NCBI GenBank assembly: GCA_944472155.2
Contig: OX235277.1
Location: 32,746,804 to 32,810,803, forward strand
Length of the DNA: 64,000 nucleotides
Reading direction: 5' to 3'
Origin: Trichobilharzia szidati
Lineage: Eukaryota > Platyhelminthes > Trematoda > Strigeidida > Schistosomatidae
Shown here: positions 17,605-58,984 of the stretch, piece after piece
How the letters are laid out: each line of letters opens with the position of its first letter
Numbering within the stretch: position 1 is the stretch's first letter
Position numbers and translations under genes: made by a program
Notes under the pieces: model-generated
What the model was told of the DNA's origin: nothing
The model's database searches: none
Seen by the model: the letters and a program-made list of their open reading frames with translations, nothing else

Positions 17605-17653
17605 ATGTTACTGCTTGTCCACTTCAAATGGTACCTATTAGCTTTCATATCCG
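17605..17653 (+). CDS. Exon 1, leader peptide start (left copy)
   Basis: ATG at 17605 begins MLLLVHFKWYLLAFIS, a hydrophobic secretory leader, and ends one base into a codon at a GTGAGT donor (17654). It reads in frame only if exon 2 begins at 18091. An acceptor at 18065/18066 gives an attractive ALLLSALL leader but is out of phase with this exon. The start lies about 30 bases after an AT microsatellite; no TATA box distinct from that microsatellite can be named. Confidence 0.65.
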
Positions 17654-20600: not shown

Positions 20601-23600
20601 GAGGCGAGGAGGAGTCTGAAATACAAACGAGGTGAGTAGATTTAGTGCTGCAGACATTCGTGAACATACAACAGTCTATAGTTGGAACGAAGTAGTAAAA
20701 TATGTTCCTGCATGAATGACCGAAGAGGAAACCATATGAGTAAATAGTGTAGCATTTGCGCAACCGGTAGATACTGGACATTCAGGAAAACTAGAAGAGA
20801 CGTTCTCGGTCATCCCCACTTTCTCGGAAATCTATCTAGATTAGCTCCACTACATCTCCCATCAGTAGCTGGAGCATTAATAATGAGTACTAGAAGACCC
20901 AATGACTGTATACCGAGGAAGCATGTCGTACCGCTGTGTTTACCATGGCCTACAGTAAGACCAACAAATCATCTGAAAACATTGGCATTTTAAATTCCTG
21001 TCCCACACTTTTCTCTTTCTTTCATTTACAGACGTCTATTTAAGACCTTCTACTACCTAACGACCTTACTGGGTGTATCAACTTAGGTTTACGCAATGCT
21101 TTTTCAAACTTGATATTATATTTACACAATAGTGTTCACTCCACTTGATTAATTTCAGGTATCGTCTGATAAACGTGTGCTGATGGGACATTTGAGTTGA
21201 CACCAGCCCGTCATGTTTCTTTTCTCTGTTGTATTCATATTATCTCACAGATAACTGATCACAATCACCTTTGAATACCACACTTTCGTTGGCTACGTTA
21301 ATACTCACATTACTCAGTTATTCAACGTCATTCTATCGCATTTTCTCGTTGACCATACGTATTCCAAATGGTAATCGCAACTCACTCACCACTGCTATCA
21401 ATCCGTCTTGTGCGTCCACCATTCAGAATATTTTGTGAATAATCCAAGTTACCTGTTACTTACAGTGTTGTATGTTAAAATGAGTGGATTCATCATTGAA
21501 GAGCCTGAAGAAGAGTTCATTGAAAACAACTTTTCACCCTAGTTATTCTTCTTCCGAATAAATTATCAGGATACTGAAAAGAAGATACCAGGATGAAACT
21601 TATTATGATGCAGGTGAAACAGATGACTGAAAATTATTGACTTTAGAAAGTTCAAAGTCCTAGCTAATTTTTTGATACTTTAGAAGTGATAAAAGCTTCG
21701 TGATTCATCGACACTTTCTTTTCGCGTTCTTCATTGTTGATAATACTAATGTCCACCATGTACCTTATCACGTTGTGAATATTCACAATTTTCTCCCCAT
21801 TTTCAGTTCCGAGAGTTGTAGAAGTTGAATTCGAACCTGCGTCAAACAAAAGTCAATTGGTGAGATGGACGTTGGAAGGTTCTCCATGTCATTCCAAAGA
21901 TAGTATGATCATGTTCGAAGGACTAACTGATCAACCTCTCGAAATGACCATTGTTCCTATTGAAAGAACAGTAACTAAGAAAACAAGAAATTCGAAGGAC
22001 GTTGTCATCATCCTGGCGGCTTTCCATGACGGAAGATTCTCTCTACCGACTTCGGGTAACCAATTATATAATTACATACTCCGATTAATAATATCAGAAC
22101 AAGACAAATAAGTGAGCAGGGTTTATGCATGTGGCGATAAGAATACCGAAGGTAGTAATCTATTTATATGTAGACAATTCGATAAATAAATGAATTAGGT
22201 GAAATCTTAAAAAGCACGTAATACTAAAGGTGAAATGGACAGATAATAAGAGTGTAAATAAATACCATTAAAACAACACGAATATAATGTGAAATAAGAA
22301 AGGGTGTGAGGGTTTTAATTAGACTTTATCTAGGCCAAGGGAGAGACAAATGTAGAACAAACTTCCTTTCTATGCGAAGACTAGGATTGTTTTCTGAAAT
22401 TCATTTCTTTAGCTTTGGCCATGTGTAAAAGGTCGGTTCGTGTTCTGTTCGAAAGTTTCGATGAAATGCGATAGGTGACATTGAAGGCACTTCTTTTGTC
22501 CACTCGGTGATCGCTATCAATCAGACGAGTCAAAATAGAACTTCTCGCAGAGTTTATTCGACCTTTTCCGAACCATGAAGGAGGATGCTCAGTAATACGT
22601 TTGTTGAGCTGGACGCTATGTATAGCTTTTTACACAGGAGCAGCTAAATTTGTAGATACACATAGAAGTGATACAGTTAGATAGCTTGTTATTCGCTTGA
22701 GCAATCATGATTGGTAGGGAGGGAGGAAATGACAAAGAAAGGGTGGCGGCTGTATAAGTCCCTTTCACTACTCTCTCTGCTTCATTAACCTTTATTGCTT
22801 GTTTTAAATTCGTATCGGGAAATAAATGTTTCCAACTCTCGATAATGTTAGATTGCAATTTTTATATCTAAATCTATGTGAAGTAGCGTAAAGCCTGAAG
22901 AAGATCTAATTGAAAAGAACATTGTTCACTTATACGTCTTGTTCTAAAATTAAATATTTACTAAAATAGTATCTGAAGCCTAAAATCATTTCAATGATAA
23001 CACTAGATATGATGTAATATTGTGTGCAGAGGTGTACAGTACAGTACATAATCAATGCACTCATGCCGAGATGGTAGATATCTAGGTATCAGTAAAATGT
23101 TTGAGCATTGTGGAATAGATCAAATAAGTATAATTATATTTCGATGGTTTACACACAATGGTAATTGTTTTGCATTTCGGTAATATAATTCTGAATACAC
23201 AAAAATGAATGAACAAAAAATAAACTAGATATATTTGAGTACAAACCATAAATGTGTGAATTAAACAACAAAACAATTCAAACAGTTGGTGTGAACAGAG
23301 GCAGTTATTTTGTTCGAAATATTACCGAAAACACAAAACCTATCATCGTGTGTGAACTATTGAAATATAATTACACTTTATTTGTATGTATCTTTCTAAA
23401 TTGAGATCACTTGTAACGAATATCACAGAGAAACCAAGTGTAGAGACAGAATAAGTAGAAGTGGAAACGTAAATAACGGTTACATAGAGGAAAACGAGTA
23501 AGTGTTGGTTTGCAGGTATGTGATTGGCTACACGTCTGACCACTAGTTGGCATCAGTTGAAGGGCCGTTGGAAAGCCAGGGAGTAATGAACATCTGTTTG

Positions 23601-26600
23601 CTCCCAGTTTGGAACTCTCGATCAGTACGCACTCATCGAGGTTCGAATCAACGCCTCCTGGTTACTGAACTACCACGTCTTCTAATTCTCCTGTATTTGA
23701 TATCAACTCGTGGTCATTCAAAACCCTACAAGCCAAAACTATAAAATTATTTTGACTCTCACTGGTGACTGGATTACCTATGACACTGATCGGTGCTTGT
23801 GATGTATATTTATAGTGATTCGACAGAAGGTGGTCAGTGTTAGAATGTCTGAAGTGGAAAATGTCGATTTGGTTGATAGATGGTTAAGATTTAAAAGACA
23901 ACAAACAGGATAAAACAGAGTTGAAATCAAAGCTCCACAAATAGCAGTCAGGAGAATATAAGCAACCTATGAAATGTGAGAAAAGTAGGCGAGAAGTAGC
24001 AGTAAAATCAGAAACGATAACAATTTTGAAAGAAACCTGAATTCAGCAATCTGATTGAGGAAAAGAGATGGAAGAGTGAAAATGTCAACTGGGAAAAATA
24101 ATAGCGAAAACTGTAGTAAGCAAAAGTCGAAATGTTGTGCATGAAAATTATACCACAAAACGCCTATAGAAATGTTGAATTGGACTAAGTCAAGGAAAAC
24201 AGAGATATGACTTCACAGATTTTAATGTGAGGAAAATTATTCTAATGACGTTTCATCTAGCAGCACAAGCAACAACAGAAAACTGAGAAGAACCGCAAAA
24301 CAGATTGTGGACAAGGAAGATAAGCGAAACAACACAATTAGCACCGAACGACAACTATCAAAATTGTCACTATCAGATGAGGATATACACAAAAATGCCC
24401 AATAAAATAACAAACAAAATGAAAACTTGAACAAAATTAGTCCGAATTTCTAACAAGGTAAGAAAGAATAACAAATTAAATACCACCGAAAAACCAAAAG
24501 GGTACAGAAAAATAAGTAAAACAATATGGGACTAAAAGCGCTAACAGGCAGTTAGCAAAGAAACACCGACCACGACACATACAATCTCTCCGAGTGTAGG
24601 TGTTTGTTGTATCATTCCATAATGGATAAGATTTTATTTTGATAAATCACACAGTGTAGTACAGTTATATTAACTGATGACGTTTCGAGCACAAACTATT
24701 GCTCATATGATATTGATATGATTATGAGCAATAGTTTGTGCTCGAAACGTCATCAGTTAATATAACTGTACTACACTGTGTGATTTATCAAAATAAAATC
24801 TTATCCATTATGGAATTATACTCTACCACAGTGCCCAAGTTTTGTTGTATCATATCTGAGTGGTTCATCGCACTCACTGAATCATCACTCGCGAACACCT
24901 CACATTTCGGGCGAAATCGCCATCAACAATCCTCAGACAGGCTTGATATCCACCTGACACAATCTCTGTCGTCACGATAAGGATGAGTGCAGTGTATATT
25001 GACTGATTGATTGATTGATTGGAGAATGTAATCATCAGCAAACATCAGTAAGAGTACCACTGAAAACAAGGGAGAAATTGATAGACATTTCGTTCAAGTT
25101 TGGAACTACACAAAAGTACACACCAGCCAAGATTCCAACACCGACATGCTGCTAAATCACTCACTGAACTTCCCGCACTGCTTTCTTTTCCAGAATCTCC
25201 ACCGCCGTCAAACATCGAGGAAGAAAAAGTCGAGTCAGCGCCATCAGGTGAGTACATTTAACTTTCACTCATGTCACTTGTTAACGGATCGTTTGCAAGT
25301 ATACTCTCCTTATTTTATGAGGGACAATATTCATTGGTGGGTTTGAGGTGAGTTTTTTCTCTTATCTCCGGGATCACCTACTTTACATTCACTTTTTACT
25401 TATTTTTGATCGCTTAAATGAATTTTCTTCCGTGAGAGATAAGTAAGGGTAGTTATAATGAAAATAACGGAAATAAACTGTAAGAAATACACTGAAGCAA
25501 GTAAAATCACAAAGAGGTATTTCAGCGTCTTAAATATCTTGTTTTCCATTTACTCTAATTAAGATACCGGCTACACGAGTTGCGCTGTACACGAACGTTA
25601 GTGTTTCTCCTGCCACTGTGAAAAAACACTCGTCCTCCTGAGACCGGAGACAAGTCGAGACAATAAATTGACTGTTCAGAATACGAGACATATATTTCTG
25701 GATCAGGAAGATTTAGCGTCGAAGCCGATGCAGAATAAATAAAAAAATTCTTTCCATTCCTCCTCTTCGCCAATAAACCCAATGATGAAATACTCAGTAT
25801 ATTTGCAGGAGACACACTGCACACTTAATCATGTCAGTAGCCTACAACGATGTCAGGGATCAGATAAAAGAGAGAGAGAGTGGAAATGATTGAAAATGAA
25901 ATGTTGTCTACATAAGTAGAAATAGTTATTTTTTTAATTTTTATCCTTCACGTTCCCAGTGGAACATAGGGCTTCAAGCTAGTGGCTTGAAGTTTCTGTA
26001 GCAGTGTTTTTATTTTACAGAATGGGTTGCTAGCCTCATGCCCAACTTTTCCTCTTTACCATCCTTATTACTAGCTTAGCGAGGTAAAGCAGTGCGTCGG
26101 CCGGGGATCGAATCCCAAACCATGTGCATGGTCGGCGAGCGTTCTAACTGCTAAGTCACCGACGCACACAAAGTACAAATAGTAACATGTATAAATTAAA
26201 CGAGGAAACACTTTTTGCAGGAAGTCAGGAACAACATGAAAGTCCAGGAGAAGAAGAGGAAGAAGAAGAAGAAATAAACATTGGTGAGTCCAGAATGTAA
26301 ACGATGAACTGACTGCATGAAAAAAATGAAAGACATTCCTGTCGATGTTAATCCTGCTTCATGGTCTAACTACTAAATTCTGCATAAATGAAAAAAATTC
26401 TACGAAATTAAAAAGTAATCGAAGGAATTTTGTTCGAATCACAAAATAATGAGTGAACAATTTATAATAAAATTGTCTCAAAAACTCGTATAGTAACAGT
26501 GTAAATACACAATTACTACTATTTTTATAGTAGATTTCATTGACGATGTGATGATCAAGCAATTGTCAAATGACTGTTGACTGAATAGGAGAAATGGAGG

Positions 26601-29600
26601 CTTTTCCTGAGGCTAGGCAATAGACGAATATAAGTGAATGCTCAGTCGGAATGAAAATCATTAGCCATTAGAATGATGTGATTTTAAACAAGTGACGGTA
26701 AAAGTGTATACACACACCCAACCATCGAGAATAAACGCGCTCCAGAGATGTGACGTGAACGAGTGTACACCGATCGAGGCGATTGCATCGTAAAGGTGAA
26801 GTCAACATTCTTACTTGAATTGATGCATTTGTGGCTTCCTAATTCCCATACTTTTGATTTCCACTTTATTCAGAAGCTCCAGTTACCATGGCGGAAAAGA
26901 CGACAGCGGCTGTGGAATCCACGACACGTGAGTCCACTTCATTTCTCACTCATGAATGAAAAGACGCACACACAGATATAGAGAGAAATGGAGAGAGAGA
27001 TGGCGTGATTTGTCTGCAATATGTCACTCTTCACTCTCGATATTGGATAGATAAGTAGTGACATCTGTGATTTGTGAACTGGGCGATGCAGTCAGTATGA
27101 TTCCTGTCTGGATAGAGTGATCACATATGTTCACGTTGTACATCTGTGTGGAAGGCTTGACCAAGGACTAGAGATGAATTCTGAATGTAGGTGGAAGCGA
27201 TCATTTCGGCTTGAGGATGACAGATGAGAGGGAAGAGAATCAAGGTGTTTGAGAATACCACTATTCTATTCGGTAGAGTTGTAACGCGATGTGATGATGA
27301 AGCAAATGTCAACTGATTGATTGTTGGCCGAATGAAAGAAATGGAGGCGTTTACTGAGAGAGACTAGGCATTAGACGAATATACGTGAATACACAGTCGA
27401 AGTGGAAATCATTAACCACGGGAATGATGTGATTTTCAACAAGTGACAGTAACACTGTATACACCCAGCCAACCACCCACCCACAGAGGAAGACTGAACA
27501 CGCTCCAGACATCTCACGTGAACAAGTATACACAGAGCGACGTGACGATATCCTCGAGGTCAAGTCAACCTCCTTACATAAAATGATGCATTTGTCGATT
27601 TCTAATTCGGATGCATGTGATTTTCACCTTCTTCAGAAGCTGCAGTTACCACGGCGAAGGAGATGGCGTCGCCTGTAGAAACCACGACACGTGAGTCCAC
27701 TTCATTTCTCACCAATAACTGAAAAAGTCAGAGATGCAGATAGAGTTGGATAAAGCGAGAGAAAGGGAGAGAGAGAGAGAGTGAGCGGGAGACAGATGGC
27801 GTCATTTGTCTGCAATGTGTCACTACTCGTGAGACTGAACTGGTGAGTAGTGACATCTGTGATTTGTGAACTGGGCGATGCAGTCAGTATGCAATCTGCA
27901 AGTTGATTGCAGTTCCGATAGTCCCATCACACATGTTCTCGTCGTACATCTGTGTGCAAGGCTTGACGAAGGAGTAGAGGTGTATTCTGAATGTGGGTGG
28001 AAGCGATCATTTCGGCTTGAGGATGACAGATGAGAGGGAAGAGAATCAAGGTGTTTGAGAATACCACTATTCTATTCGGTAGAGTTGTAACGCGATGTGA
28101 TGATGAAGCAAATGTCAACTGATTGATTGTTGGCCGAATGAAAGAAATGGAGGCGTTTACTGAGAGAGACTAGGCATTAGACGAATATACGTGAATACAC
28201 AGTCGAAGTGGAAATCATTAACCACGGGAATGATGTGATTTTCAACAAGTGACAGTAACACTGTATACACCCAGCCAACCACCCACCCACAGAGGAAGAC
28301 TGAACACGCTCCAGACATCTCACGTGAACAAGTATACACAGAGCGACGTGACGATATCCTCGAGGTCAAGTCAACCTCCTTACATAAAATGATGCATTTG
28401 TCGATTTCTAATTCGGATGCATGTGATTTTCACCTTCTTCAGAAGCTGCAGTTACCACGGCGAAGGAGATGGCGTCGCCTGTAGAAACCACGACACGTGA
28501 GTCCACTTCATTTCTCACCAATAACTGAAAAAGTCAGAGATGCAGATAGAGTTGGATAAAGCGAGAGAAAGGGAGAGAGAGAGAGAGATTGAGCGGGAGA
28601 GAGATGGCGTCATTTGTCTGCAATGTGTCACTACTCGTGAGACTGAACTGGTGAGTAGTGACATCTGTGATTTGTGAACTGGGCGATGCAGTCAGTATGC
28701 AATCTGCAAGTTGATTGCAGTTCCGATAGTCCCATCACACATGTTCTCGTCGTACATCTGTGTGCAAGGCTTGACGAAGGAGTAGAGGTGTATTCTGAAT
28801 GTGGGTGGAAGCGATCATTTCGGCTTGAGGATGACAGATGAGAGGGAAGAGAATCAAGGTGTTTGAGAATACCACTATTCTATTCGGTAGAGTTGTAACG
28901 CGATGTGATGATGAAGCAAATGTCAACTGATTGATTGTTGGCCGAATGAAAGAAATGGAGGCGTTTACTGAGAGAGACTAGGCATTAGACGAATATACGT
29001 GAATACACAGTCGAAGTGGAAATCATTAACCACGGGAATGATGTGATTTTCAACAAGTGACAGTAACACTGTATACACCCAGCCAACCACCCACCCACAG
29101 AGGAAGACTGAACACGCTCCAGACATCTCACGTGAACAAGTATACACAGAGCGACGTGACGATATCCTCGAGGTCAAGTCAACCTCCTTACATAAAATGA
29201 TGCATTTGTCGATTTCTAATTCGGATGCATGTGATTTTCACCTTCTTCAGAAGCTGCAGTTACCACGGCGAAGGAGATGGCGTCGCCTGTAGAAACCACG
29301 ACACGTGAGTCCACTTCATTTCTCACCAATAACTGAAAAAGTCAGAGATGCAGATAGAGTTGGATAAAGCGAGAGAAAGGGAGAGAGAGAGAGAGATTGA
29401 GCGGGAGACAGATGGCGTCATTTGTCTGCAATGTGTCACTACTCGTGAGACTGAACTGGTGAGTAGTGACATCTGTGATTTGTGAACTGGGCGATGCAGT
29501 CAGTATGCAATCTGCAAGTTGATTGCAGTTCCGATAGTCCCATCACACATGTTCTCGTCGTACATCTGTGTGCAAGGCTTGACGAAGGAGTAGAGGTGTA

Positions 29601-30921
29601 TTCTGAATGTGGGTGGAAGCGATCATTTCGGCTTGAGGATGACAGATGAGAGGGAAGAGAATCAAGGTGTTTGAGAATACCACTATTCTATTCGGTAGAG
29701 TTGTAACGCGATGTGATGATGAAGCAAATGTCAACTGATTGATTGTTGGCCGAAATGAAAGAAATGGAGGCGTTTACTGAGAGAGACTAGGCATTAGACG
29801 AATATACGTGAATACACAGTCGAAGTGGAAATCATTAACCACGGGAATGATGTGATTTTCAACAAGTGACAGTAACACTGTATACACCCAGCCAACCACC
29901 CACCCACAGAGGAAGACTGAACACGCTCCAGACATCTCACGTGAACAAGTATACACAGAGCGACGTGACGATATCCTCGAGGTCAAGTCAACCTCCTTAC
30001 ATAAAATGATGCATTTGTCGATTTCTAATTCGGATGCATGTGATTTTCACCTTCTTCAGAAGCTGCAGTTACCACGGCGAAGGAGATGGCGTCGCCTGTA
30101 GAAACCACGACACGTGAGTCCACTTCATTTCTCACCAATAACTGAAAAAGTCAGGGATGCAGATAGAGTTGGATAAAGCGAGAGAAAGGGAGAGAGAGAG
30201 AGAGATTGAGCGGGAGACAGATGGCGTCATTTGTCTGCAATGTGTCACTACTCGTGAGACTGAACTGGTGAGTAGTGACATCTGTGATTTGTGAACTGGG
30301 CGATGCAGTCAGTATGCAATCTGCAAGTTGATTGCAGTTCCGATAGTCCCATCACACATGTTCTCGTCGTACATCTGTGTGCAAGGCTTGACGAAGGAGT
30401 AGAGGTGTATTCTGAATGTGGGTGGAAGCGATCATTTCGGCTTGAGGATGACAGATGAGAGGGAAGAGAATCAAGGTGTTTGAGAATACCACTATTCTAT
30501 TCGGTAGAGTTGTAACGCGATGTGATGATGAAGCAAATGTCAACTGATTGATTGTTGGCCCAATGAAAGAAATGGAGGCGTTTACTGAGAGAGACTAGGC
30601 ATTAGACGAATATACGTGAATACACAGTCGAAGTGGAAATCATTAACCACGGGAATGATGTGATTTTCAACAAGTGACAGTAACACTGTATACACCCAGC
30701 CAACCACCCACCCACAGAGGAAGACTGAACACGCTCCAGACATCTCACGTGAACAAGTATACACAGAGCGACGTGACGATATCCTCGAGGTCAAGTCAAC
30801 CTCCTTACATAAAATGATGCATTTGTCGATTTCTAATTCGGATGCATGTGATTTTCACCTTCTTCAGAAGCTGCAGTTACCACGGCGAAGGAGATGGCGT
30901 CGCCTGTAGAAACCACGACAC
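17605..30921 (+). CDS. Secreted repeat protein, micro-exon-type gene, left copy (12 visible coding exons)
   Basis: Proposed coding exons: 17605-17653, 18091-18159, 20359-20631, 21807-22055, 25194-25247, 26221-26283, 26874-26927, then five identical-type exons 27637-27690, 28443-28496, 29251-29304, 30060-30113 and 30868-30921. Every junction is GT-AG and every intron is phase 1, so all internal exons (69, 273, 249, 54, 63, 54, 54 nt) divide by three. Joined, they stay open for 360 codons: leader (1 to about 26), an unrecognised domain (about 28-213) with Cys27, Cys101, Cys158, several Trp and one N-glycosylation sequon at Asn144, an acidic/proline linker (214-252) with eight consecutive Glu, then 18-residue Thr-rich repeats. 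The architecture is known from fluke micro-exon genes, though these exons exceed the smallest of that class. A secreted, O-glycosylated product is inference. The 3' end is not visible and extra small exons in long introns cannot be excluded. Confidence 0.75.
18091..18159 (+). CDS. Exon 2, end of leader and mature N terminus (left copy)
   Basis: This 69-nt phase-1 exon follows a pyrimidine-rich TTTTGTCTGCTTTATTAG acceptor and ends at GTAAGT. It encodes VTLLPQEEVECYKPEYLEV and a few more residues; Cys27 is here. Thr18 is Ser in the right-arm copy. An alternative upstream acceptor (TTTGCAG, 18059-18065) would need a different first exon. Confidence 0.65.
19216..19988. repeat. Element with long terminal inverted repeats in intron 2 (left copy)
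   Basis: About 145-bp imperfect inverted repeats (19216-19360 and 19845-19988) both start GATAACCAGTTAC on their outer ends and share the GAGTGACGCAATA block. Between them is a frame (19394-19771) without recognisable homology. It could be a non-autonomous DNA transposon or two inverted terminal repeats of a retroelement. Confidence 0.6.
20359..20631 (+). CDS. Exon 3, first half of unrecognised domain (left copy)
   Basis: A 273-nt open exon between TTTATTTCAG and GTGAGT, residues 40-130. It starts with a basic GRRRAFWLLQ run, has Trp at 46, 59 and 78, Cys101, and ends with a basic, tyrosine-containing segment. Across the arms only Lys99 (Glu in the right copy) differs at protein level. No family recognised. 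Confidence 0.75.
21807..22055 (+). CDS. Exon 4, second half of unrecognised domain (left copy)
   Basis: A 249-nt exon between CCCATTTTCAG and GTAACC, residues 131-213. It contains VPRVVEVEFEP, the sequon Asn144-Lys-Ser, Trp151, Cys158 and a hydrophobic VVIILAAF strand near the end. The protein sequence is identical in the two arms, consistent with constraint or recent gene conversion. Confidence 0.75.
22056..25193 (+). other. Intron 4, long (left copy)
   Basis: About 3.1 kb containing the perfect foldback and otherwise AT-rich unique sequence. It is long enough to hide further small phase-1 exons, which could not be told from chance by eye. Confidence 0.5.
24614..24816. repeat. Perfect 93-bp foldback in intron 4 (left copy)
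   Basis: Arms 24614-24706 and 24724-24816 are exact reverse complements around a 17-base loop. Each arm includes TGATGACGTTTCGAGCACAA, the core of a dispersed repeat found elsewhere in the window. Transcribed as intron it would form a very stable hairpin. Confidence 0.88.
25194..25247 (+). CDS. Exon 5, proline/acidic linker (left copy)
   Basis: A 54-nt phase-1 exon between CTTTCTTTTCCAG and GTGAGT. With the shared base it encodes ESPPPSNIEEEKVESAPS, an unstructured-looking linker. It is identical in the right arm. Confidence 0.7.
25941..26166 (-). mobile_element. tRNA-derived SINE in intron 5 (left copy)
   Basis: The minus-strand head folds like a tRNA: TGCGTCG pairs with CGACGCA as acceptor stem, CCATG-CA-CATGG forms the middle hairpin and GGGATTCGATCCC the T arm (B box). 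The body ends in a tail resembling the 3' end of the RTE-like LINEs in this window. Confidence 0.8.
26221..26283 (+). CDS. Exon 6, polyglutamate linker (left copy)
   Basis: A 63-nt phase-1 exon between CTTTTTGCAG and GTGAGT. It encodes GSQEQHESPG, eight Glu, then INI. The GAA/GAG run is prone to length slippage, but both arms have the same length. A SINE sits just upstream in the preceding intron. Confidence 0.7.
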
Positions 30922-31369
30922 GTGAGTCCACTTCATTTCTCACCAATAACTGAAAAAGTCAGAGATGCAGATAGAGTTGGATAAAGCGAGAGAAAGGGGA
31001 GAGAGAGAGAGAGATTGAGCGGGAGAGAGATGGCGTCATTTGTCTGCAATGTGTCACTACTCGTGAGACTGAACTGGTGGAGTAGTGACATCTGTGATTT
31101 GTGAACTGGGCGATGCAGTCAGTATGCAATCTGCAAGTTGATTGCAGTTCCGATAGTCCCATCACACATGTTCTCGTCGTACATCTGTGTGCAAGGCTTG
31201 ACGAAGGAGTAGAGGTGTATTCTGAATGTGGGTGGAAGCGATCATTTCGGCTTGAGGATGACAGATGAGAGGGAAGAGAATCAAGGTGTTTGAGAATACC
31301 ACTATTCTATTCGGTAGAGTTGTAACGCGATGTGATGATGAAGCAAATGTCAACTGATTGATTGTTGAC
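26543..31369 (+). repeat. Left exon-bearing tandem array (founder unit plus five full units)
   Basis: One diverged unit, then five near-identical units with exon-to-exon spacing of 806, 808, 809 and 808 bp, then a partial unit cut by the N run. Each full unit holds a TTCTTCAG acceptor, a 54-nt exon encoding one QAAVTTAKEMASPVETTT repeat, a GTGAGT donor and a (GA)n tract of varying length. If the intron after any unit is retained, translation stops ten codons on. Introns are as conserved as exons, indicating homogenisation of whole units. Confidence 0.9.
26874..26927 (+). CDS. Exon 7, diverged founder-type repeat exon (left copy)
   Basis: A 54-nt phase-1 exon encoding EAPVTMAEKTTAAVESTT, clearly related to the array repeat. 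The surrounding intron also aligns with the array unit but is much more diverged, so this looks like the ancestral or edge unit from which the array was amplified. Met258 is Thr in the right copy, which matches the array repeat. Confidence 0.72.
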
Positions 31370-31865
31370 NNNNNNNNNNNNNNNNNNNNNNNNNNNNNNN
31401 NNNNNNNNNNNNNNNNNNNNNNNNNNNNNNNNNNNNNNNNNNNNNNNNNNNNNNNNNNNNNNNNNNNNNNNNNNNNNNNNNNNNNNNNNNNNNNNNNNNN
31501 NNNNNNNNNNNNNNNNNNNNNNNNNNNNNNNNNNNNNNNNNNNNNNNNNNNNNNNNNNNNNNNNNNNNNNNNNNNNNNNNNNNNNNNNNNNNNNNNNNNN
31601 NNNNNNNNNNNNNNNNNNNNNNNNNNNNNNNNNNNNNNNNNNNNNNNNNNNNNNNNNNNNNNNNNNNNNNNNNNNNNNNNNNNNNNNNNNNNNNNNNNNN
31701 NNNNNNNNNNNNNNNNNNNNNNNNNNNNNNNNNNNNNNNNNNNNNNNNNNNNNNNNNNNNNNNNNNNNNNNNNNNNNNNNNNNNNNNNNNNNNNNNNNNN
31801 NNNNNNNNNNNNNNNNNNNNNNNNNNNNNNNNNNNNNNNNNNNNNNNNNNNNNNNNNNNNNNNNN
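31370..31865. other. Assembly gap (496 N)
   Basis: A run of N sits exactly where the repeat array changes direction. The missing sequence may include more array units, the 3' ends of one or both genes and the 5' part of the central LINE. Its given length need not be the real length. Confidence 0.98.
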
Positions 31866-32913
31866 ACCCCAAATATTCATCAACCTTATTCAACAGCTAA
31901 ACGACAACGGCACATGCCAAGTGATCCACAACGGAAAACTCAGCAAGGCGTTTGGAGTAAACACAGGAGTCAGACAAGGGTGCTTATTATCACCAATGAT
32001 ATTCCTAATTGTGGTGGACTGGATTATGATTTAGACAGTGGGAAATGAGAAGACAGGGATATCCTGGACCGACGTGAAGAACCTAGAAGACCTGGATTTC
32101 GCGCGTGGATGATTTATGTTTGATGTCACACAAAATCGAAGACTTACAAGCGAAAACCGACCAACTGGTCGAAGAAGCAGCAAAGACAGGACTGCAGGTG
32201 AATATAGACAAGAGGGAGGTCATGAAAATCACCAACCAACAACGGCAGCAACATCCAGTGCAAATCACCATCAACGGGAGGGATTTGAAAGAGGTTACTT
32301 CATTCACTTATCTAGGGAGAATTGTCTCAACCACAGGAGGAACGGACGAGGATGTCAAATCGAGAATCGGGAAGGCGAGAAACACATTCATCAACCTGAA
32401 ACCAATCTGGAAATCTTCGTCACTCAGCATCAACAACAAAATTCGGATTTTCAATACAAACGTGAAGTCAATTCTGCTTTACGGATCAGAAACTTGGCGG
32501 GTCACCAAGAATATTTTCAACAGGTTGCAGACATTTATCAACAACTGTCTTCGCTCTATACTGAAGATTAGATATCCGGAAAGAATCACAAACAAGAAGC
32601 TATGGGAACAAACGAAACAGGAACCAATCGCACAACAAAAATGCAGGAGAAAGTGGAGATGGATCGGACACTCGCTGGGGAGGCCGTTGGGTGACATCGC
32701 GCGTCAGGCCCTCGAGTGGAACCCGAAAGAGAAGCGGCGAGTGGGACGTCAAAGGGTGACATGGAGGAGATCGTGTGAGGAGGAGATGACAAAGTATGGA
32801 ACAACATGGACGCAACTGAAAAGTACAGCACAAGACAGAAGCAAGTGGAGTCGTGCAGCTGAAGCCATATGTTCCACTAAGAACCCAAGGGAACAATAAT
32901 AATAATAATAATT
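31866..32913 (+). mobile_element. Central RTE-like LINE, 3' half, inactive
   Basis: Reverse transcriptase remnants begin at the gap: GVRQGCLLSPMIFLIVVDW near 31970, then a FADD-type motif and DLCLMSHKIEDL, and the conserved C-terminal region with YGSETWR, a Cys-rich segment and WNPKEKRRVGRQ, ending in NPREQ and an (AAT)n tail typical of RTE-clade LINEs. An in-frame TAG follows the VVDWIMI segment. Four extra bases split the FADD motif (32096-32110), so the frame is broken at the catalytic site. From 32105 to 32899 the C-terminal frame is open. The element lies in or beside the repeat array at the palindrome centre. Confidence 0.85.
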
Positions 32914-35900
32914 TTCAAACAACTTGATAACTTCCCTCTCATCTGTCATCCTCAAGCCGAAATGATCGCTTCCACCCACATTCAGAATACACCTCTACTC
33001 CTTCGTCAAGCCTTGCACACAGATGTACGACGAGAACATGTGTGATGGGACTATCGGAACTGCAATCAACTTGCAGATTGCATACTGACTGCATCGCCCA
33101 GTTCACAAATCACAGATGTCACTACTCACCAGTTCAGTCTCACGAGTAGTGACACATTGCAGACAAATGACGCCATCTGTCTCCCGCTCAATCTCTCTCT
33201 CTCTCTCTCCCTTTCTCTCGCTTTATCCAACTCTATCTGCATCTCTGACTTTTTCAGTTATTGGTGAGAAATGAAGTGGACTCACGTGTCGTGGCTTCTA
33301 CAGGCGACGCCATCTCCTTCGCCGTGGTAACTGCAGCTTCTGAAGAAGGTGAAAATCACATGCATCCGAATTAGAAATCGACAAATGCATCATTTTATGT
33401 AAGGAGGTTGACTTGACCTCGAGGATATCGTCACGTCGCTCTGTGTATACTTGTTCACGTGAGATGTCTGGAGCGTGTTCAGTCTTCCTCTGTGGGTGGG
33501 TGGTTGGTTGGGTGTATACAGTGTTACTGTCACTTGTTGAAAATCACATCATTCCCGTGGTTAATGATTTCCACTTCGACTGTGTATTCACGTATATTCG
33601 TCTAATGCCTAGTCTCTCTCAGTAAACGCCTCCATTTCTTTCATTCGGCCAACAATCAATCAGTTGACATTTGCTTCATCATCACATCACGTTACAACTC
33701 TACCGAATAGAATAGTGGTATTCTCAAACACCTTGATTCTCTTCCCTCTCATCTGTCATCCTCAAGCCGAAATGATCGCTTCCACCCACATTCAGAATAC
33801 ACCTCTACTCCTTCGTCAAGCCTTGCACACAGATGTACGACGAGAACATGTGTGATGGGACTATCGGAACTGCAATCAACTTGCAGATTGCATACTGACT
33901 GCATCGCCCAGTTCACAAATCACAGATGTCACTACTCACCAGTTCAGTCTCACGAGTAGTGACACATTGCAGACAAATGACGCCATCTGTCTCCCGCTCA
34001 ATCTCTCTCTCTCTCTCTCCCTTTCTCTCGCTTTATCCAACTCTATCTGCATCTCTGACTTTTTCAGTTATTGGTGAGAAATGAAGTGGACTCACGTGTC
34101 GTGGTTTCTACAGGCGACGCCATCTCCTTCGCCGTGGTAACTGCAGCTTCTGAAGAAGGTGAAAATCACATGCATCCGAATTAGAAATCGACAAATGCAT
34201 CATTTTATGTAAGGAGGTTGACTTGACCTCGAGGATATCGTCACGTCGCTCTGTGTATACTTGTTCACGTGAGATGTCTGGAGCGTGTTCAGTCTTCCTC
34301 TGTGGGTGGGTGGTTGGTTGGGTGTATACAGTGTTACTGTCACTTGTTGAAAATCACATCATTCCCGTGGTTAATGATTTCCACTTCGACTGTGTATTCA
34401 CGTATATTCGTCTAATGCCTAGTCTCTCTCAGTAAACGCCTCCATTTCTTTCATTCGGCCAACAATCAATCAGTTGACATTTGCTTCATCATCACATCAC
34501 GTTACAACTCTACCGAATAGAATAGTGGTATTCTCAAACACCTTGATTCTCTTCCCTCTCATCTGTCATCCTCAAGCCGAAATGATCGCTTCCACCCACA
34601 TTCAGAATACACCTCTACTCCTTCGTCAAGCCTTGCACACAGATGTACGACGAGAACATGTGTGATGGGACTATCGGAACTGCAATCAACTTGCAGATTG
34701 CATACTGACTGCATCGCCCAGTTCACAAATCACAGATGTCACTACTCACCAGTTCAGTCTCACGGGTAGTGACACATTGCAGACAAATGACGCCATCTGT
34801 CTCCCGCTCAATCTCTCTCTCTCTCTCCCTTTCTCTCGCTTTATCCAACTCTATCTGCATCTCTGACTTTTTCAGTTATTGGTGAGAAATGAAGTGGACT
34901 CACGTGTCGTGGTTTCTACAGGCGACGCCATCTCCTTCGCCGTGGTAACTGCAGCTTCTGAAGAAGGTGAAAATCACATGCATCCGAATTAGAAATCGAC
35001 AAATGCATCATTTTATGTAAGGAGGTTGACTTGACCTCGAGGATATCGTCACGTCGCTCTGTGTATACTTGTTCACGTGAGATGTCTGGAGCGTGTTCAG
35101 TCTTCCTCTGTGGGTGGGTGGTTGGCTGGGTGTATACAGTGTTACTGTCACTTGTTGAAAATCACATCATTCCCGTGGTTAATGATTTCCACTTCGACTG
35201 TGTATTCACGTATATTCGTCTAATGCCTAGTCTCTCTCAGTAAACGCCTCCATTTCTTTCATTCGGCCAACAATCAATCAGTTGACATTTGCTTCATCAT
35301 CACATCGCGTTACAACTCTACCGAATAGAATAGTGGTATTCTCAAACACCTTGATTCTCTTCCCTCTCATCTGTCATCCTCAAGCCGAAATGATCGCTTC
35401 CACCCACATTCAGAATACACCTCTACTCCTTCGTCAAGCCTTGCACACAGATGTACGACGAGAACATGTGTGATGGGACTATCGGAACTGCAATCAACTT
35501 GCAGATTGCATACTGACTGCATCGCCCAGTTCACAAATCACAGATGTCACTACTCACCAGTTCAGTCTCACGAGTAGTGACACATTGCAGACAAATGACG
35601 CCATCTGTCTCCCGCTCAATCTCTCTCTCTCTCTCTCCCTTTCTCTCGCTTTATCCAACTCTATCTGCATCTCTGACTTTTTCAGTTATTGGTGAGAAAT
35701 GAAGTGGACTCACGTGTCGTGGTTTCTACAGGCGACGCCATCTCCTTCGCCGTGGTAACTGCAGCTTCTGAAGAAGGTGAAAATCACATGCATCCGAATT
35801 AGAAATCGACAAATGCATCATTTTATGTAAGGAGGTTGACTTGACCTCGAGGATATCGTCACGTCGCTCTGTGTATACTTGTTCACGTGAGATGTCTGGA

Positions 35901-38900
35901 GCGTGTTCAGTCTTCCTCTGTGGGTGGGTGGTTGGTTGGGTGTATACAGTGTTACTGTCACTTGTTGAAAATCACATCATTCCCGTGGTTAATGATTTCC
36001 ACTTCGACTGTGTATTCACGTATATTCGTCTAATGCCTAGTCTCTCTCAGTAAACGCCTCCATTTCTTTCATTCGGCCAACAATCAATCAGTTGACATTT
36101 GCTTCATCATCACATCACGTTACAACTCTACCGAATAGAATAGTGGTATTCTCAAACACCTTGATTCTCTTCCCTCTCATCTGTCATCCTCAAGCCGAAA
36201 TGATCGCTTCCACCCACATTCAGAATACACCTCTACTCCTTCGTCAAGCCTTGCACACAGATGTACGACGAGAACATGTGTGATGGGACTATCGGAACTG
36301 CAATCAACTTGCAGATTGCATACTGACTGCATCGCCCAGTTCACAAATCACAGATGTCACTACTCACCAGTTCAGTCTCACGGGTAGTGACACATTGCAG
36401 ACAAATGACGCCATCTGTCTCCCGCTCAATCTCTCTCTCTCTCTCTCCCTTTCTCTCGCTTTATCCAACTCTATCTGCATCTCTGACTTTTTCAGTTATT
36501 GGTGAGAAATGAAGTGGACTCACGTGTCGTGGTTTCTACAGGCGACGCCATCTCCTTCGCCGTGGTAACTGCAGCTTCTGAAGAAGGTGAAAATCACATG
36601 CATCCGAATTAGAAATCGACAAATGCATCATTTTATGTAAGGAGGTTGACTTGACCTCGAGGATATCGTCACGTCGCTCTGTGTATACTTGTTCACGTGA
36701 GATGTCTGGAGCGTGTTCAGTCTTCCTCTGTGGGTGGGTGGTTGGCTGGGTGTATACAGTGTTACTGTCACTTGTTGAAAATCACATCATTCCCGTGGTT
36801 AATGATTTCCACTTCGACTGTGTATTCACGTATATTCGTCTAATGCCTAGTCTCTCTCAGTAAACGCATCCATTTCTTTCATTCGGCCAACAATCAATCA
36901 GTTGACATTTGCTTCATCATCACATCGCGTTACAACTCTACCGAATAGAATAGTGGTATTCTCAAACACCTTGATTCTCTTCCCTCTCATCTGTCATCCT
37001 CGAGCCGAAATGATCGCTTCCACCCACATTCAGAATACACCTCTACTCCTTCGTCAAGCCTTGCACACAGATGTACGACGAGAACATGTGTGATGGGACT
37101 ATCGGAACTGCAATCAACTTGCAGATTGCATACTGACTGCATCGCCCAGTTCACAAATCACAGATGTCACTACTCACCAGTTCAGTCTCACGAGTAGTGA
37201 CACATTGCAGACAAATGACGCCATCTGTCTCCCGCTCAATCTCTCTCTCTCTCTCTCCCTTTCTCTCGCTTTATCCAACTCTATCTGCATCTCTGACTTT
37301 TTCAGTTATTGGTGAGAAATGAAGTGGACTCACGTGTCGTGGTTTCTACAGGCGACGCCATCTCCTTCGCCGTGGTAACTGCAGCTTCTGAAGAAGGTGA
37401 AAATCACATGCATCCGAATTAGAAATCGACAAATGCATCATTTTATGTAAGGAGGTTGACTTGACCTCGAGGATATCGTCACGTCGCTCTGTGTATACTT
37501 GTTCACGTGAGATGTCTGGAGCGTGTTCAGTCTTCCTCTGTGGGTGGGTGGTTGGCTGGGTGTATACAGTGTTACTGTCACTTGTTGAAAATCACATCAT
37601 TCCCGTGGTTAATGATTTCCACTTCGACTGTGTATTCACGTATATTCGTCTAATGCCTAGTCTCTCTCAGTAAACGCCTCCATTTCTTTCATTCGGCCAA
37701 CAATCAATCAGTTGACATTTGCTTCATCATCACATCGCGTTACAACTCTACCGAATAGAATAGTGGTATTCTCAAACACCTTGATTCTCTTCCCTCTCAT
37801 CTGTCATCCTCGAGCCGAAATGATCGCTTCCACCCACATTCAGAATACACCTCTACTCCTTCGTCAAGCCTTGCACACAGATGTACGACGAGAACATGTG
37901 TGATGGGACTATCGGAACTGCAATCAACTTGCAGATTGCATACTGACTGCATCGCCCAGTTCACAAATCACAGATGTCACTACTCACCAGTTCAGTCTCA
38001 CGAGTAGTGACACATTGCAGACAAATGACGCCATCTGTCTCCCGCTCAATCTCTCTCTCTCTCTCTCCCTTTCTCTCGCTTTATCCAACTCTATCTGCAT
38101 CTCTGACTTTTTCAGTTATTGGTGAGAAATGAAGTGGACTCACGTGTCGTGGTTTCTACAGGCGACGCCATCTCCTTCGCCGTGGTAACTGCAGCTTCTG
38201 AAGAAGGTGAAAATCACATGCATCCGAATTAGAAATCGACAAATGCATCATTTTATGTAAGGAGGTTGACTTGACCTCGAGGATATCGTCACGTCGCTCT
38301 GTGTATACTTGTTCACGTGAGATGTCTGGAGCGTGTTCAGTCTTCCTCTGTGGGTGGGTGGTTGGCTGGGTGTATACAGTGTTACTGTCACTTGTTGAAA
38401 ATCACATCATTCCCGTGGTTAATGATTTCCACTTCGACTGTGTATTCACGTATATTCGTCTAATGCCTAGTCTCTCTCAGTAAACGCATCCATTTCTTTC
38501 ATTCGGCCAACAATCAATCAGTTGACATTTGCTTCATCATCACATCACGTTACAACTCTACCGAATAGAATAGTGGTATTCTCAAACACCTTGATTCTCT
38601 TCCCTCTCATCTGTCATCCTCAAGCCGAAATGATCGCTTCCACCCACATTCAGAATACACCTCTACTCCTTCGTCAAGCCTTGCACACAGATGTACGACG
38701 AGAACATGTGTGATGGGACTATCGGAACTGCAATCAACTTGCAGATTGCATACTGACTGCATCGCCCAGTTCACAAATCACAGATGTCACTACTCACCAG
38801 TTCAGTCTCACGAGTAGTGACACATTGCAGACAAATGACGCCATCTGTCTCCCGCTCAATCTCTCTCTCTCTCTCTCCCTTTCTCTCGCTTTATCCAACT

Positions 38901-41900
38901 CTATCTGCATCTCTGACTTTTTCAGTTATTGGTGAGAAATGAAGTGGACTCACGTGTCGTGGTTTCTACAGGCGACGCCATCTCCTTCGCCGTGGTAACT
39001 GCAGCTTCTGAAGAAGGTGAAAATCACATGCATCCGAATTAGAAATCGACAAATGCATCATTTTATGTAAGGAGGTTGACTTGACCTCGAGGATATCGTC
39101 ACGTCGCTCTGTGTATACTTGTTCACGTGAGATGTCTGGAGCGTGTTCAGTCTTCCTCTGTGGGTGGGTGGTTGGCTGGGTGTATACAGTGTTACTGTCA
39201 CTTGTTGAAAATCACATCATTCCCGTGGTTAATGATTTCCACTTCGACTGTGTATTCACGTATATTCGTCTAATGCCTAGTCTCTCTCAGTAAACGCCTC
39301 CATTTCTTTCATTCGGCCAACAATCAATCAGTTGACATTTGCTTCATCATCACATCACGTTACAACTCTACCGAATAGAATAGTGGTATTCTCAAACACC
39401 TTGATTCTCTTCCCTCTCATCTGTCATCCTCAAGCCGAAATGATCGCTTCCACCCACATTCAGAATACACCTCTACTCCTTCGTCAAGCCTTGCACACAG
39501 ATGTACGACGAGAACATGTGTGATGGGACTATCGGAACTGCAATCAACTTGCAGATTGCATACTGACTGCATCGCCCAGTTCACAAATCACAGATGTCAC
39601 TACTCACCAGTTCAGTCTCACGAGTAGTGACACATTGCAGACAAATGACGCCATCTGTCTCCCGCTCAATCTCTCTCTCTCTCTCTCTCCCTTTCTCTCG
39701 CTTTATCCAACTCTATCTGCATCTCTGACTTTTTCAGTTATTGGTGAGAAATGAAGTGGACTCACGTGTCGTGGTTTCTACAGGCGACGCCATCTCCTTC
39801 GCCGTGGTAACTGCAGCTTCTGAAGAAGGTGAAAATCACATGCATCCGAATTAGAAATCGACAAATGCATCATTTTATGTAAGGAGGTTGACTTGACCTC
39901 GAGGATATCGTCACGTCGCTCTGTGTATACTTGTTCACGTGAGATGTCTGGAGCGTGTTCAGTCTTCCTCTGTGGGTGGGTGGTTGGCTGGGTGTATACA
40001 GTGTTACTGTCACTTGTTGAAAATCACATCATTCCCGTGGTTAATGATTTCCACTTCGACTGTGTATTCACGTATATTCGTCTAATGCCTAGTCTCTCTC
40101 AGTAAACGCATCCATTTCTTTCATTCGGCCAACAATCAATCAGTTGACATTTGCTTCATCATCACATCGTGTTACAACTCTACCGAATAGAATAGTGGTA
40201 TTCTCAAACACCTTGATTCTCTTCCCTCTCATCTGTCATCCTCAAGCCGAAATGATCGCTTCCACCCACATTCAGAATACACCTCTACTCCTTCGTCAAG
40301 CCTTGCACACAGATGTACGACGAGAACATGTGTGATGGGACTATCGGAACTGCAATCAACTTGCAGATTGCATACTGACTGCATCGCCCAGTTCACAAAT
40401 CACAGATGTCACTACTCACCAGTTCAGTCTCACGAGTAGTGACACATTGCAGACAAATGACGCCATCTGTCTCCCGCTCAATCTCTCTCTCTCTCTCTCC
40501 CTTTCTCTCGCTTTATCCAACTCTATCTGCATCTCTGACTTTTTCAGTTATTGGTGAGAAATGAAGTGGACTCACGTGTCGTGGTTTCTACAGGCGACGC
40601 CATCTCCTTCGCCGTGGTAACTGCAGCTTCTGAAGAAGGTGAAAATCACATGCATCCGAATTAGAAATCGACAAATGCATCATTTTATGTAAGGAGGTTG
40701 ACTTGACCTCGAGGATATCGTCACGTCGCTCTGTGTATACTTGTTCACGTGAGATGTCTGGAGCGTGTTCAGTCTTCCTCTGTGGGTGGGTGGTTGGCTG
40801 GGTGTATACAGTGTTACTGTCACTTGTTGAAAATCACATCATTCCCGTGGTTAATGATTTCCACTTCGACTGTGTATTCACGTATATTCGTCTAATGCCT
40901 AGTCTCTCTCAGTAAACGCATCCATTTCTTTCATTCGGCCAACAATCAATCAGTTGACATTTGCTTCATCATCACATCGCGTTACAACTCTACCGAATAG
41001 AATAGTGGTATTCTCAAACACCTTGATTCTCTTCCCTCTCATCTGTCATCCTCAAGCCGAAATGATCGCTTCCACCCACATTCAGAATACACCTCTACTC
41101 CTTCGTCAAGCCTTGCACACAGATGTACGACGAGAACATGTGTGATGGGACTATCGGAACTGCAATCAACTTGCAGATTGCATACTGACTGCATCGCCCA
41201 GTTCACAAATCACAGATGTCACTACTCACCAGTTCAGTCTCACGAGTAGTGACACATTGCAGACAAATGACGCCATCTGTCTCCCGCTCAATCTCTCTCT
41301 CTCTCTCTCCCTTTCTCTCGCTTTATCCAACTCTATCTGCATCTCTGACTTTTTCAGTTATTGGTGAGAAATGAAGTGGACTCACGTGTCGTGGTTTCTA
41401 CAGGCGACGCCATCTCCTTCGCCGTGGTAACTGCAGCTTCTGAAGAAGGTGAAAATCACATGCATCCGAATTAGAAATCGACAAATGCATCATTTTATGT
41501 AAGGAGGTTGACTTGACCTCGAGGATATCGTCACGTCGCTCTGTGTATACTTGTTCACGTGAGATGTCTGGAGCGTGTTCAGTCTTCCTCTGTGGGTGGG
41601 TGGTTGGCTGGGTGTATACAGTGTTACTGTCACTTGTTGAAAATCACATCATTCCCGTGGTTAATGATTTCCACTTCGACTGTGTATTCACGTATATTCG
41701 TCTAATGCCTAGTCTCTCTCAGTAAACGCATCCATTTCTTTCATTCGGCCAACAATCAATCAGTTGACATTTGCTTCATCATCACATCGCGTTACAACTC
41801 TACCGAATAGAATAGTGGTATTCTCAAACACCTTGATTCTCTTCCCTCTCATCTGTCATCCTCAAGCCGAAATGATCGCTTCCACCCACATTCAGAATAC

Positions 41901-44150
41901 ACCTCTACTCCTTCGTCAAGCCTTGCACACAGATGTACGACGAGAACATGTGTGATGGGACTATCGGAACTGCAATCAACTTGCAGATTGCATACTGACT
42001 GCATCGCCCAGTTCACAAATCACAGATGTCACTACTCACCAGTTCAGTCTCACGAGTAGTGACACATTGCAGACAAATGACGCCATCTGTCTCCCGCTCA
42101 ATCTCTCTCTCTCTCTCCCTTTCTCTCGCTTTATCCAACTCTATCTGCATCTCTGACTTTTTCAGTTATTGGTGAGAAATGAAGTGGACTCACGTGTCGT
42201 GGTTTCTACAGGCGACGCCATCTCCTTCGCCGTGGTAACTGCAGCTTCTGAAGAAGGTGAAAATCACATGCATCCGAATTAGAAATCGACAAATGCATCA
42301 TTTTATGTAAGGAGGTTGACTTGACCTCGAGGATATCGTCACGTCGCTCTGTGTATACTTGTTCACGTGAGATGTCTGGAGCGTGTTCAGTCTTCCTCTG
42401 TGGGTGGGTGGTTGGCTGGGTGTATACAGTGTTACTGTCACTTGTTGAAAATCACATCATTCCCGTGGTTAATGATTTCCACTTCGACTGTGTATTCACG
42501 TATATTCGTCTAATGCCTAGTCTCTCTCAGTAAACGCCTCCATTTCTTTCATTCGGCCAACAATCAATCAGTTGACATTTGCTTCATCATCACATCGCGT
42601 TACAACTCTACCGAATAGAATAGTGGTATTCTCAAACACCTTGATTCTCTTCCCTCTCATCTGTCATCCTCAAGCCGAAATGATCGCTTCCACCCACATT
42701 CAGAATACACCTCTACTCCTTCGTCAAGCCTTGCACACAGATGTACGACGAGAACATGTGTGATGGGACTATCGGAACTGCAATCAACTTGCAGATTGCA
42801 TACTGACTGCATCGCCCAGTTCACAAATCACAGATGTCACTACTCACCAGTTCAGTCTCACGAGTAGTGACACATTGCAGACAAATGACGCCATCTGTCT
42901 CCCGCTCAATCTCTCTCTCTCTCTCTCCCTTTCTCTCGCTTTATCCAACTCTATCTGCATCTCTGACTTTTTCAGTTATTGGTGAGAAATGAAGTGGACT
43001 CACGTGTCGTGGTTTCTACAGGCGACGCCATCTCCTTCGCCGTGGTAACTGCAGCTTCTGAAGAAGGTGAAAATCACATGCATCCGAATTAGAAATCGAC
43101 AAATGCATCATTTTATGTAAGGAGGTTGACTTGACCTCGAGGATATCGTCACGTCGCTCTGTGTATACTTGTTCACGTGAGATGTCTGGAGCGTGTTCAG
43201 TCTTCCTCTGTGGGTGGGTGGTTGGCTGGGTGTATACAGTGTTACTGTCACTTGTTGAAAATCACATCATTCCCGTGGTTAATGATTTCCACTTCGACTG
43301 TGTATTCACGTATATTCGTCTAATGCCTAGTCTCTCTCAGTAAACGCCTCCATTTCTTTCATTCGGCCAACAATCAATCAGTTGACATTTGCTTCATCAT
43401 CACATCGCGTTACAACTCTACCGAATAGAATAGTGGTATTCTCAAACACCTTGATTCTCTTCCCTCTCATCTGTCATCCTCAAGCCGAAATGATCGCTTC
43501 CACCCACATTCAGAATACATCTCTACTCCTTCGTCAAGCCTTGCACACAGATGTACAACGAGAACATATGTGATCACTCTATCCAGACAGGAATCATACT
43601 GACTGCATCACCCAGTTCACAAATCACAGATGTCACTACTTACCTATCCAATATCGAGAGTGAAGGGTGACATATTTCAGACAAATCACGCCATCTCTCT
43701 CTCCATTTCTCTCTATCTCTGTGTGTGCGTCTTTTCATTCATGAGTGAGAAATGAAGTGGACTCACGTGTCGTGGATTCCACAGCCGCTGTCGTCTTCTC
43801 CGCCGTGGTAACTGGAGCTTCTGAATAAAGTGGAAATCAAAAGTATGGGAATTAGGAAGCCACAAATGCATCAATTCAAGTAAGAATGTTGACTTCACCT
43901 TTACGATGCAATCGCCTCGATCGGTGTACACTCGTTCACGTCACATCTCTGGAGCGCGTTTATTCTCGATGGTTGGGTGTGTGTATACACTTTTACCGTC
44001 ACTTGTTGAAAATCACATCATTCTAATGGCTAATGATTTTCATTCCGACTGAGCATTCACTTATATTCGTCTATTGCCTAGCCTCAGGAAAAGCCTCCAT
44101 TTCTCCTATTCAGTCAACAGTCATTTGACAATTGCTTGATCATCACATCG
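32914..44150 (-). repeat. Right exon-bearing tandem array (thirteen units plus founder)
   Basis: Thirteen near-identical units on the minus strand with exon spacing of 808, 810 or 812 bp, and 763 bp to the founder exon at 43767. The 2-bp spacing steps follow the number of CT repeats in each unit. A few single-base variants are shuffled among units. The array begins inside a unit straight after the (AAT)n tail of the central LINE. Short conserved frames on the other strand inside each unit are by-products of the homogenisation. Confidence 0.92.
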
Positions 44151-58785: not shown

Positions 58786-58984
58786 ATGCGTGATCCCTTG
58801 TAGCAAATCGAGTATATAACTGGCTGGTTAAAACAGTATAAATGGGGGTAAGTTGACGCCTTACACGGGATGGAAATACTTTTATCCATACAGTCTTCCG
58901 CCTAATTTCAGACTAGTTTATCCCGACTGGTTCTCATTCTGTAATTAAATCCCGGTTGCATTGTTTGTTCTTCCGTATAATTAA

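Follow-up and report, generated by a model that had tools for sequence, protein, structure and literature searches.

The window analysed here is a 64,000-nt stretch of contig C7 (72,348,017 bp) of the bird schistosome Trichobilharzia szidati, and it contains two tandem arrays of a roughly 810-bp unit in which each copy carries one short exon coding for a threonine-rich peptide. A fuzzy scan and an exon check place these arrays on opposite strands, with 6 exons in the left array (forward strand, 26874-30921) and 14 in the right array (reverse strand, 43820-33286), each exon being 54 nt long. Each array comprises one divergent first copy followed by canonical copies, five on the left and thirteen on the right; the canonical copies are spaced 806-812 bp apart, and in both arrays the divergent copy lies 763 bp from the next. 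All 20 Thr-rich exons are in phase 1, with a ...TTCAG/AA acceptor and a C/GTGAGT donor. The canonical exon encodes QAAVTTAKEMASPVETTT, with a single residue change (T to A) in one of the 18 canonical copies, and the divergent first copy of both arrays encodes EAPVT[M/T]AEKTTAAVESTT. The 18-residue exon product contains five T, one S and one P, so that 7/18 residues per copy are S, T or P. The original prediction, which had counted five and thirteen copies of a symmetric 54-nt phase-1 exon with CAG/GTGAGT-type borders and a Thr-rich product, thus agrees with the scan on all of these points. Being frame-neutral, the exon can be present in any number, or skipped in any pattern, with the reading frame kept.

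We compared 22 complete units, of which the left array supplied 4, the right array 12, and a third array, F, outside the window (C7:32934439-32939277), 6. These units are 0-5 substitutions apart over about 800 bp, with 10 variable columns and 9 indel columns, 8 of the latter inside a GA tract; the canonical unit has a GA run, and no run of 18 purines occurs in three divergent units. Units W3, R01 and R10 and five F units are identical across arrays except at indel columns, while introns of exons 1-4 in the two genes around the window's arrays (W and W', described below) differ by 1.1%, which points to recent expansion and to exchange between arrays; the surroundings of array F were left out of this comparison. 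Genome-wide, the unit has at least 53 matches, of which 50 lie on C7 and 3 on contig C372; the window's right array is absent from the matches listed. Tandem Repeats Finder (TRF) does not list the array, the longest TRF period there being 500, and antisense frames span up to 90 codons in the canonical unit and 80-117 codons in divergent units.

Each array sits within a larger phase-1 gene, W on the left and W' on the right, with a leader-like exon, a pair of fibronectin type III (FnIII)-like exons, acidic spacers and Thr-rich exons (Table 1). W exons after the first are multiples of three in phase 1, and the joined frame is open; the same holds for the W' exons located by the exon check. The 3' ends of W and W' were not found at the scaffold gap into which both arrays run. 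A gap-free paralogue, gene A (C7:32690295 to about 32722760, forward strand), was modelled exon by exon and gives the full order: exons 1-4 (e1-e4), then modules of e5, e6 and Thr exons with 1, 1, 2 and 2 Thr exons, a juxtamembrane exon, and a transmembrane (TM) exon that ends in a short basic tail. The 48-nt juxtamembrane exon is a weak match, although splice sites flank it. The model excludes an e3-like match of half length at C7:32718766. None of the 20 exons of gene A is shorter than 36 nt (shortest, 48), and its Thr exons alternate with other in-frame exons. With juxtamembrane and TM exons present in this gap-free paralogue, the prediction is for a membrane protein and not just a secreted mucin. 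A donor-seeded scan of 260 kb found 40 Thr exon copies with 10 distinct sequences, and in 39 of them the acceptor and frame are intact. Exon 3 has 21 genome matches at E ≤ 0.001, 19 of them within 2.8 Mb (C7:32.69-35.49 Mb); the other two lie at C7:27.7 Mb and on contig C1. Five more exon 3 copies, with identical scores and 79% identity to the window's, lie at C7:35338783-35402053 and form another recent expansion.

When the predicted product was used as a protein query, 4 T. szidati proteins and no others were returned at E ≤ 10, and a profile search returned 9 at E ≤ 1, 8 from T. szidati and one from T. regenti (P0007), which resembles P0006, a family member without Thr repeats. No Schistosoma protein was returned at either threshold by this search, which needs shared 5-residue words and similar length and can miss distant or longer relatives. 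One public gene model, P0005, splices homologous Thr-rich exons, containing QAPVDTAKKMALAVETTT and its neighbours. The genomic DNA of P0005 (locus L046), in which the units are about 31% diverged, has exons of 54 and 48 nt and a further copy that has lost the usual acceptor and is read from a shifted one as 45 nt with the frame kept. Among the five array-family models, Thr repeats are present in P0005 and absent from P0001-P0004. Frame-keeping exon skipping, proposed in the original prediction, is seen between pairs of public models, for e5 in P0002/P0003 and for e4 in P0005/P0008. P0001 was dropped as evidence for skipping of exon 2, as its halves match exon 3 copies about 65 kb apart (L035 and L036; C7:35.19-35.25 Mb); the model is probably a fusion.

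Overall, we consider it likely that these arrays code for the stalk in a Trichobilharzia family of type I membrane proteins. The protein plan would comprise a leader, two FnIII-like domains, an acidic and Thr-rich linker, a TM helix and a short basic tail. The Thr-rich exon and its intron, carried together in the ~810-bp unit, would expand, contract and be homogenised by unequal exchange or conversion. In this model, array length would set stalk length and exon skipping could trim the stalk; each copy would probably add 18 residues and thereby vary the length and glycan load beneath the FnIII heads. The Thr-rich repeats are probably O-glycosylated, and we infer that the window's Thr copies are spliced and that W and W' are membrane-anchored. 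The most likely role would be to show FnIII heads at a variable distance from a host-facing worm or gland surface; this surface location, the host-facing role and copy-number polymorphism are all putative. Of the mucin-like secreted surface first proposed for these repeats, the Thr-rich character stands, and the FnIII-like pair and the paralogue's TM exon change the rest to a predicted membrane-anchored protein with a variable stalk. Short secreted forms of the family may also exist, with P0004 a candidate. Reading through the e6 donor of W (26284-26300) gives GESRM and then a stop, the same ending as P0004; this could be a short form without stalk or membrane anchor, or a model error.

Several results weigh against this reading. 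Exons 3 and 4 model as an FnIII pair, but the fold model is weak, with a predicted local distance difference test (pLDDT) score of 49, a predicted TM-score (pTM) of 0.39 and Foldseek TM-scores mostly of 0.2-0.5. The two exons have no Pfam or PDB sequence match above cut-off, an absence that does not exclude FnIII. The window includes no TM exon for W or W', and a tblastn search found none between the two genes. The gene E models P0002 and P0003 skip two perfect Thr exons, and P0004 stops just beyond the e6 donor, with neither a Thr exon nor a TM segment. The canonical repeat occurs in no returned protein, a weak point since one search reached proteins of about 95-301 residues, scored from a capped list of candidates. 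Clear purifying selection is not seen in the Thr exon sequence: nonsynonymous divergence (pN) is near or above synonymous divergence (pS) in many of 15 pairs, and compared with 54-nt flank windows, the exon is not better kept in three of five divergent copies (20%, 29% and 58% of windows as similar). In the other two, it is unusually well kept (1% and 6%). Finally, pooled pN/pS for exon 3 is 0.82 (66 pairs, 12 copies), so diversifying selection is not general. Separately, a Cas3_HD match (E 0.089) and an envelope-like match in one member (E 0.026) were dismissed, and a poor single-sequence fold of P0002 (pLDDT 41) was not used.

The comparison of exons 1-4 between genes shows two patterns. Exons are more conserved than introns between W and A (3/639 exon versus 71/4266 intron changes, p 0.015) and between W and W' (2/639 versus 49/4267, p 0.057). 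Between W and gene D, exons change faster than introns (26/639 versus 70/4253, p 0.0002), and e3 and e4 together show 24 nonsynonymous changes and 1 synonymous change (p 0.024); the p-values for D are optimistic, because D was chosen after viewing ten pairs. A more far-reaching and tentative proposal is a Trichobilharzia-specific receptor family, independent of the Schistosoma mansoni polymorphic mucins (SmPoMuc), with diversifying FnIII heads and a heritable, individually variable stalk length set by the arrays, which would serve recognition of the host (or of self).

The window as a whole is an inverted repeat, in which 7434-31367 pairs with 63985-39318 at 96-99% identity around a scaffold gap. 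Beside the gap, in the last unit of the right array, lies a fragment of a non-long-terminal-repeat (non-LTR) reverse transcriptase. Both arrays run into this gap and non-LTR centre, so five and thirteen are minimum counts. The arrays may represent either two haplotypes or a true duplication, with the gap centre a candidate haplotype mis-join or large palindrome. We regard it as an even call whether W and W' are one locus present twice, as haplotype contigs scaffolded tail to tail and carrying alleles of at least 5 and at least 13 copies. Consistent with a single locus, the gap centres an inverted repeat (region C7:32680001-32882000) that continues in C7 across the ~98 kb analysed on the left, with colinear cover of 81% of that side at a weighted identity of 96.9% (single pieces 72-99%) and 99.0% identity in the 8 kb adjoining the gap; the lack of a TM exon between W and W' fits as well. 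However, the cluster holds further segmental duplicates, in either orientation, that are similarly alike (roughly 94-99%), and A and D, which would have to be alleles, differ by 22 nonsynonymous sites and 1 synonymous site in e3 and e4. This alternative bears on how many loci there are and does not conflict with a stalk-coding function of the arrays. Other features of the window include related non-LTR fragments at 11416-12369, 31869-32901 and 58976-60030, the outer two being ~73% alike to the middle, gap-side one, which has an AATAAT tail. Each arm also carries a long hairpin, or foldback element (24609-24821 and 45861-46073), and the two copies match in direct and inverted orientation. A short tandem of TTAGGG-like repeats lies inside the contig at 6901-7005.

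Table 1. Arrays, exons and gap-side features in the window
Feature	Position	Strand	Remarks
Left (W) tandem array	27637..31369	+	5 canonical exons; enters gap mid-unit
Right (W') tandem array	32901..43057	-	13 canonical exons (43057-43004 down to 33339-33286)
Left-array 54-nt exons	starts 26874, 27637, 28443, 29251, 30060, 30868	+	Fuzzy scan, exon check
Right-array 54-nt exons	starts 43820, 43057, 42247, 41439, 40629, 39819, 39007	-	Fuzzy scan, exon check
Right-array 54-nt exons, continued	starts 38197, 37387, 36577, 35767, 34957, 34149, 33339	-	Fuzzy scan, exon check
Scaffold gap, 496 N	31370..31865	.	Centre of inverted repeat
Non-LTR reverse transcriptase fragment	31866..32900	+	DUF6451; RVT_1 under its cut-off; beside gap, in last unit of right array
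W exon 1	17605..17653	+	Start codon, then hydrophobic leader MLLLVHFKWYLLAFIS; ends in phase 1; leader judged by eye, P0005 leader similar
W exon 2	18091..18159	+	69 nt, phase 1; splice matches P0005, on comparison with which this start replaced 18066
W exon 3	20359..20631	+	273 nt; first FnIII-like domain
W exon 4	21807..22055	+	249 nt; second FnIII-like domain
W exon 5	25194..25247	+	54 nt; spacer ESPPPSNIEEEKVESAPS
W exon 6	26221..26283	+	63 nt; acidic spacer GSQEQHESPGEEEEEEEEINI
W first (divergent) Thr-rich exon	26874..26927	+	EAPVTMAEKTTAAVESTT
W' first (divergent) Thr-rich exon	43767..43820	-	EAPVTTAEKTTAAVESTT
W' exon 6	44412..44474	-	
W' exon 5	45447..45500	-	
W' exon 4	48656..48904	-	FnIII-like
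W' exon 3	50080..50352	-	FnIII-like
W' exon 2	52552..52620	-	Placed by tblastn, borders by analogy with W; not found by exact-string search
W' exon 1	53058..53106	-	Leader

We consider it unlikely that the units are a non-coding satellite with a fossil exon, in which no copy beyond the first one or two has a role, and perhaps not even those. The near-identity of the units, the lack of clear purifying selection on the 54-nt sequence and the skipping of perfect copies in P0002 and P0003 would all fit a satellite. Three observations speak against this explanation: the acceptor and frame are kept in all but one of the 40 copies scanned, P0005 has homologous copies in a gene whose units have diverged so far, and Thr exons alternate with other in-frame exons in gene A.

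The notion that this family is a rearranged homologue of SmPoMuc, belonging to the same repeat-exon gene family as in S. mansoni, is very improbable despite the common anatomy (clustered paralogues with 1-20 copies of a ~1-kb unit that carries a short symmetric exon and varies in the length of its GA tract), since the repeat exon is 54 rather than 27 nt and follows two domain exons rather than the signal exon directly, exons of 273 and 249 nt and a predicted TM segment are present, and our word- and length-limited searches, in which SmPoMuc sequences were outside direct comparison, returned no Schistosoma protein.

Among known systems, type I membrane proteins with FnIII domains share with this family a tandem FnIII-like pair, as predicted by fold, and a TM helix, and differ in that there is no sequence match and that the stalk here is built from repeat exons. 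The plexin domain-containing (CP391S-like) proteins of a subtelomeric cluster in S. mansoni, described in the relevant sections of PMC10900676 as having a PSI domain with CxWC, are similar in their leader, C-terminal membrane domain, segmental duplication and variable exon make-up. Here, by contrast, none of 9 alignment members matches the PSI domain (PF01437) at E ≤ 0.1, and the CxWC motif occurs in 0/9 proteins. Titles and abstract openings of the T. szidati genome, gene-family and FnIII literature contain no description of this Thr-stalk family.

The likeness to fluke polymorphic mucins and micro-exon genes (MEGs) raised in the original prediction holds for the SmPoMuc layout (PMC2576457, in part) and does not extend to MEGs as defined by exons of <36 bp (PMC4671649, in part). 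By that definition, the central part of a MEG consists mostly of such exons, and the proteins are small (~10 kDa on average); MEG-14, -29 and -32 are described as membrane-anchored and O-glycosylated (PMC4671649, PMC10526429). Our family resembles MEGs in its symmetric short exons, Thr-rich stretches, putative leader, splice variants and, as in some MEGs, a predicted TM anchor. It differs in that 0/20 gene A exons fall under 36 bp and two measure 273 and 249 nt. The wider exon range of 3-81 bp given in part of PMC10526429 would admit the leader, spacer and Thr exons here, and not e3 and e4.

As far as described in the sections of PMC2576457 consulted, SmPoMuc genes have 15 exons averaging 60 bp, and a 27-bp exon 2, directly after the signal exon, encodes 9-residue repeats. 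Exon 2 lies in ~1-kb units that are >93-94% conserved and vary in length at an imperfect GA tract; as many as 20 genomic copies of the unit occur in a clustered multigene family whose array breaks the assembly, exon-deletion isoforms keep the frame, and a hammerhead ribozyme lies in the intron between exons 9 and 10 (PMC2576457). Rfam gave no match at gathering threshold in our window, which lacks the 3' parts of W and W'; gene A was outside that search. On this partial account, the two systems share a short exon carried with its intron in a tandem unit (~1 kb there, ~810 bp here) with a variable GA tract, clustered paralogues, frame-keeping exon skips and an assembly break in the array. They differ in that the repeat exon here has 54 nt and 18 residues, appears from the seventh exon onward after two FnIII-like exons, and in paralogues is followed by a TM exon, with 20 exons in gene A including those of 273 and 249 nt. 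Because exon order, size and domains differ, we do not file the family as SmPoMuc, which is nevertheless its closest working analogue. If our reading is correct, a bird schistosome has a second gene family with the SmPoMuc device of a frame-neutral exon in a homogenising tandem unit, and setting the length of surface proteins by tandem-exon arrays would be a recurrent schistosome strategy rather than a single oddity. Such arrays also break assemblies and gene models, as with the missing 3' ends of W and W' and the four of five array-family models without repeats, much as the SmPoMuc array breaks its assembly.

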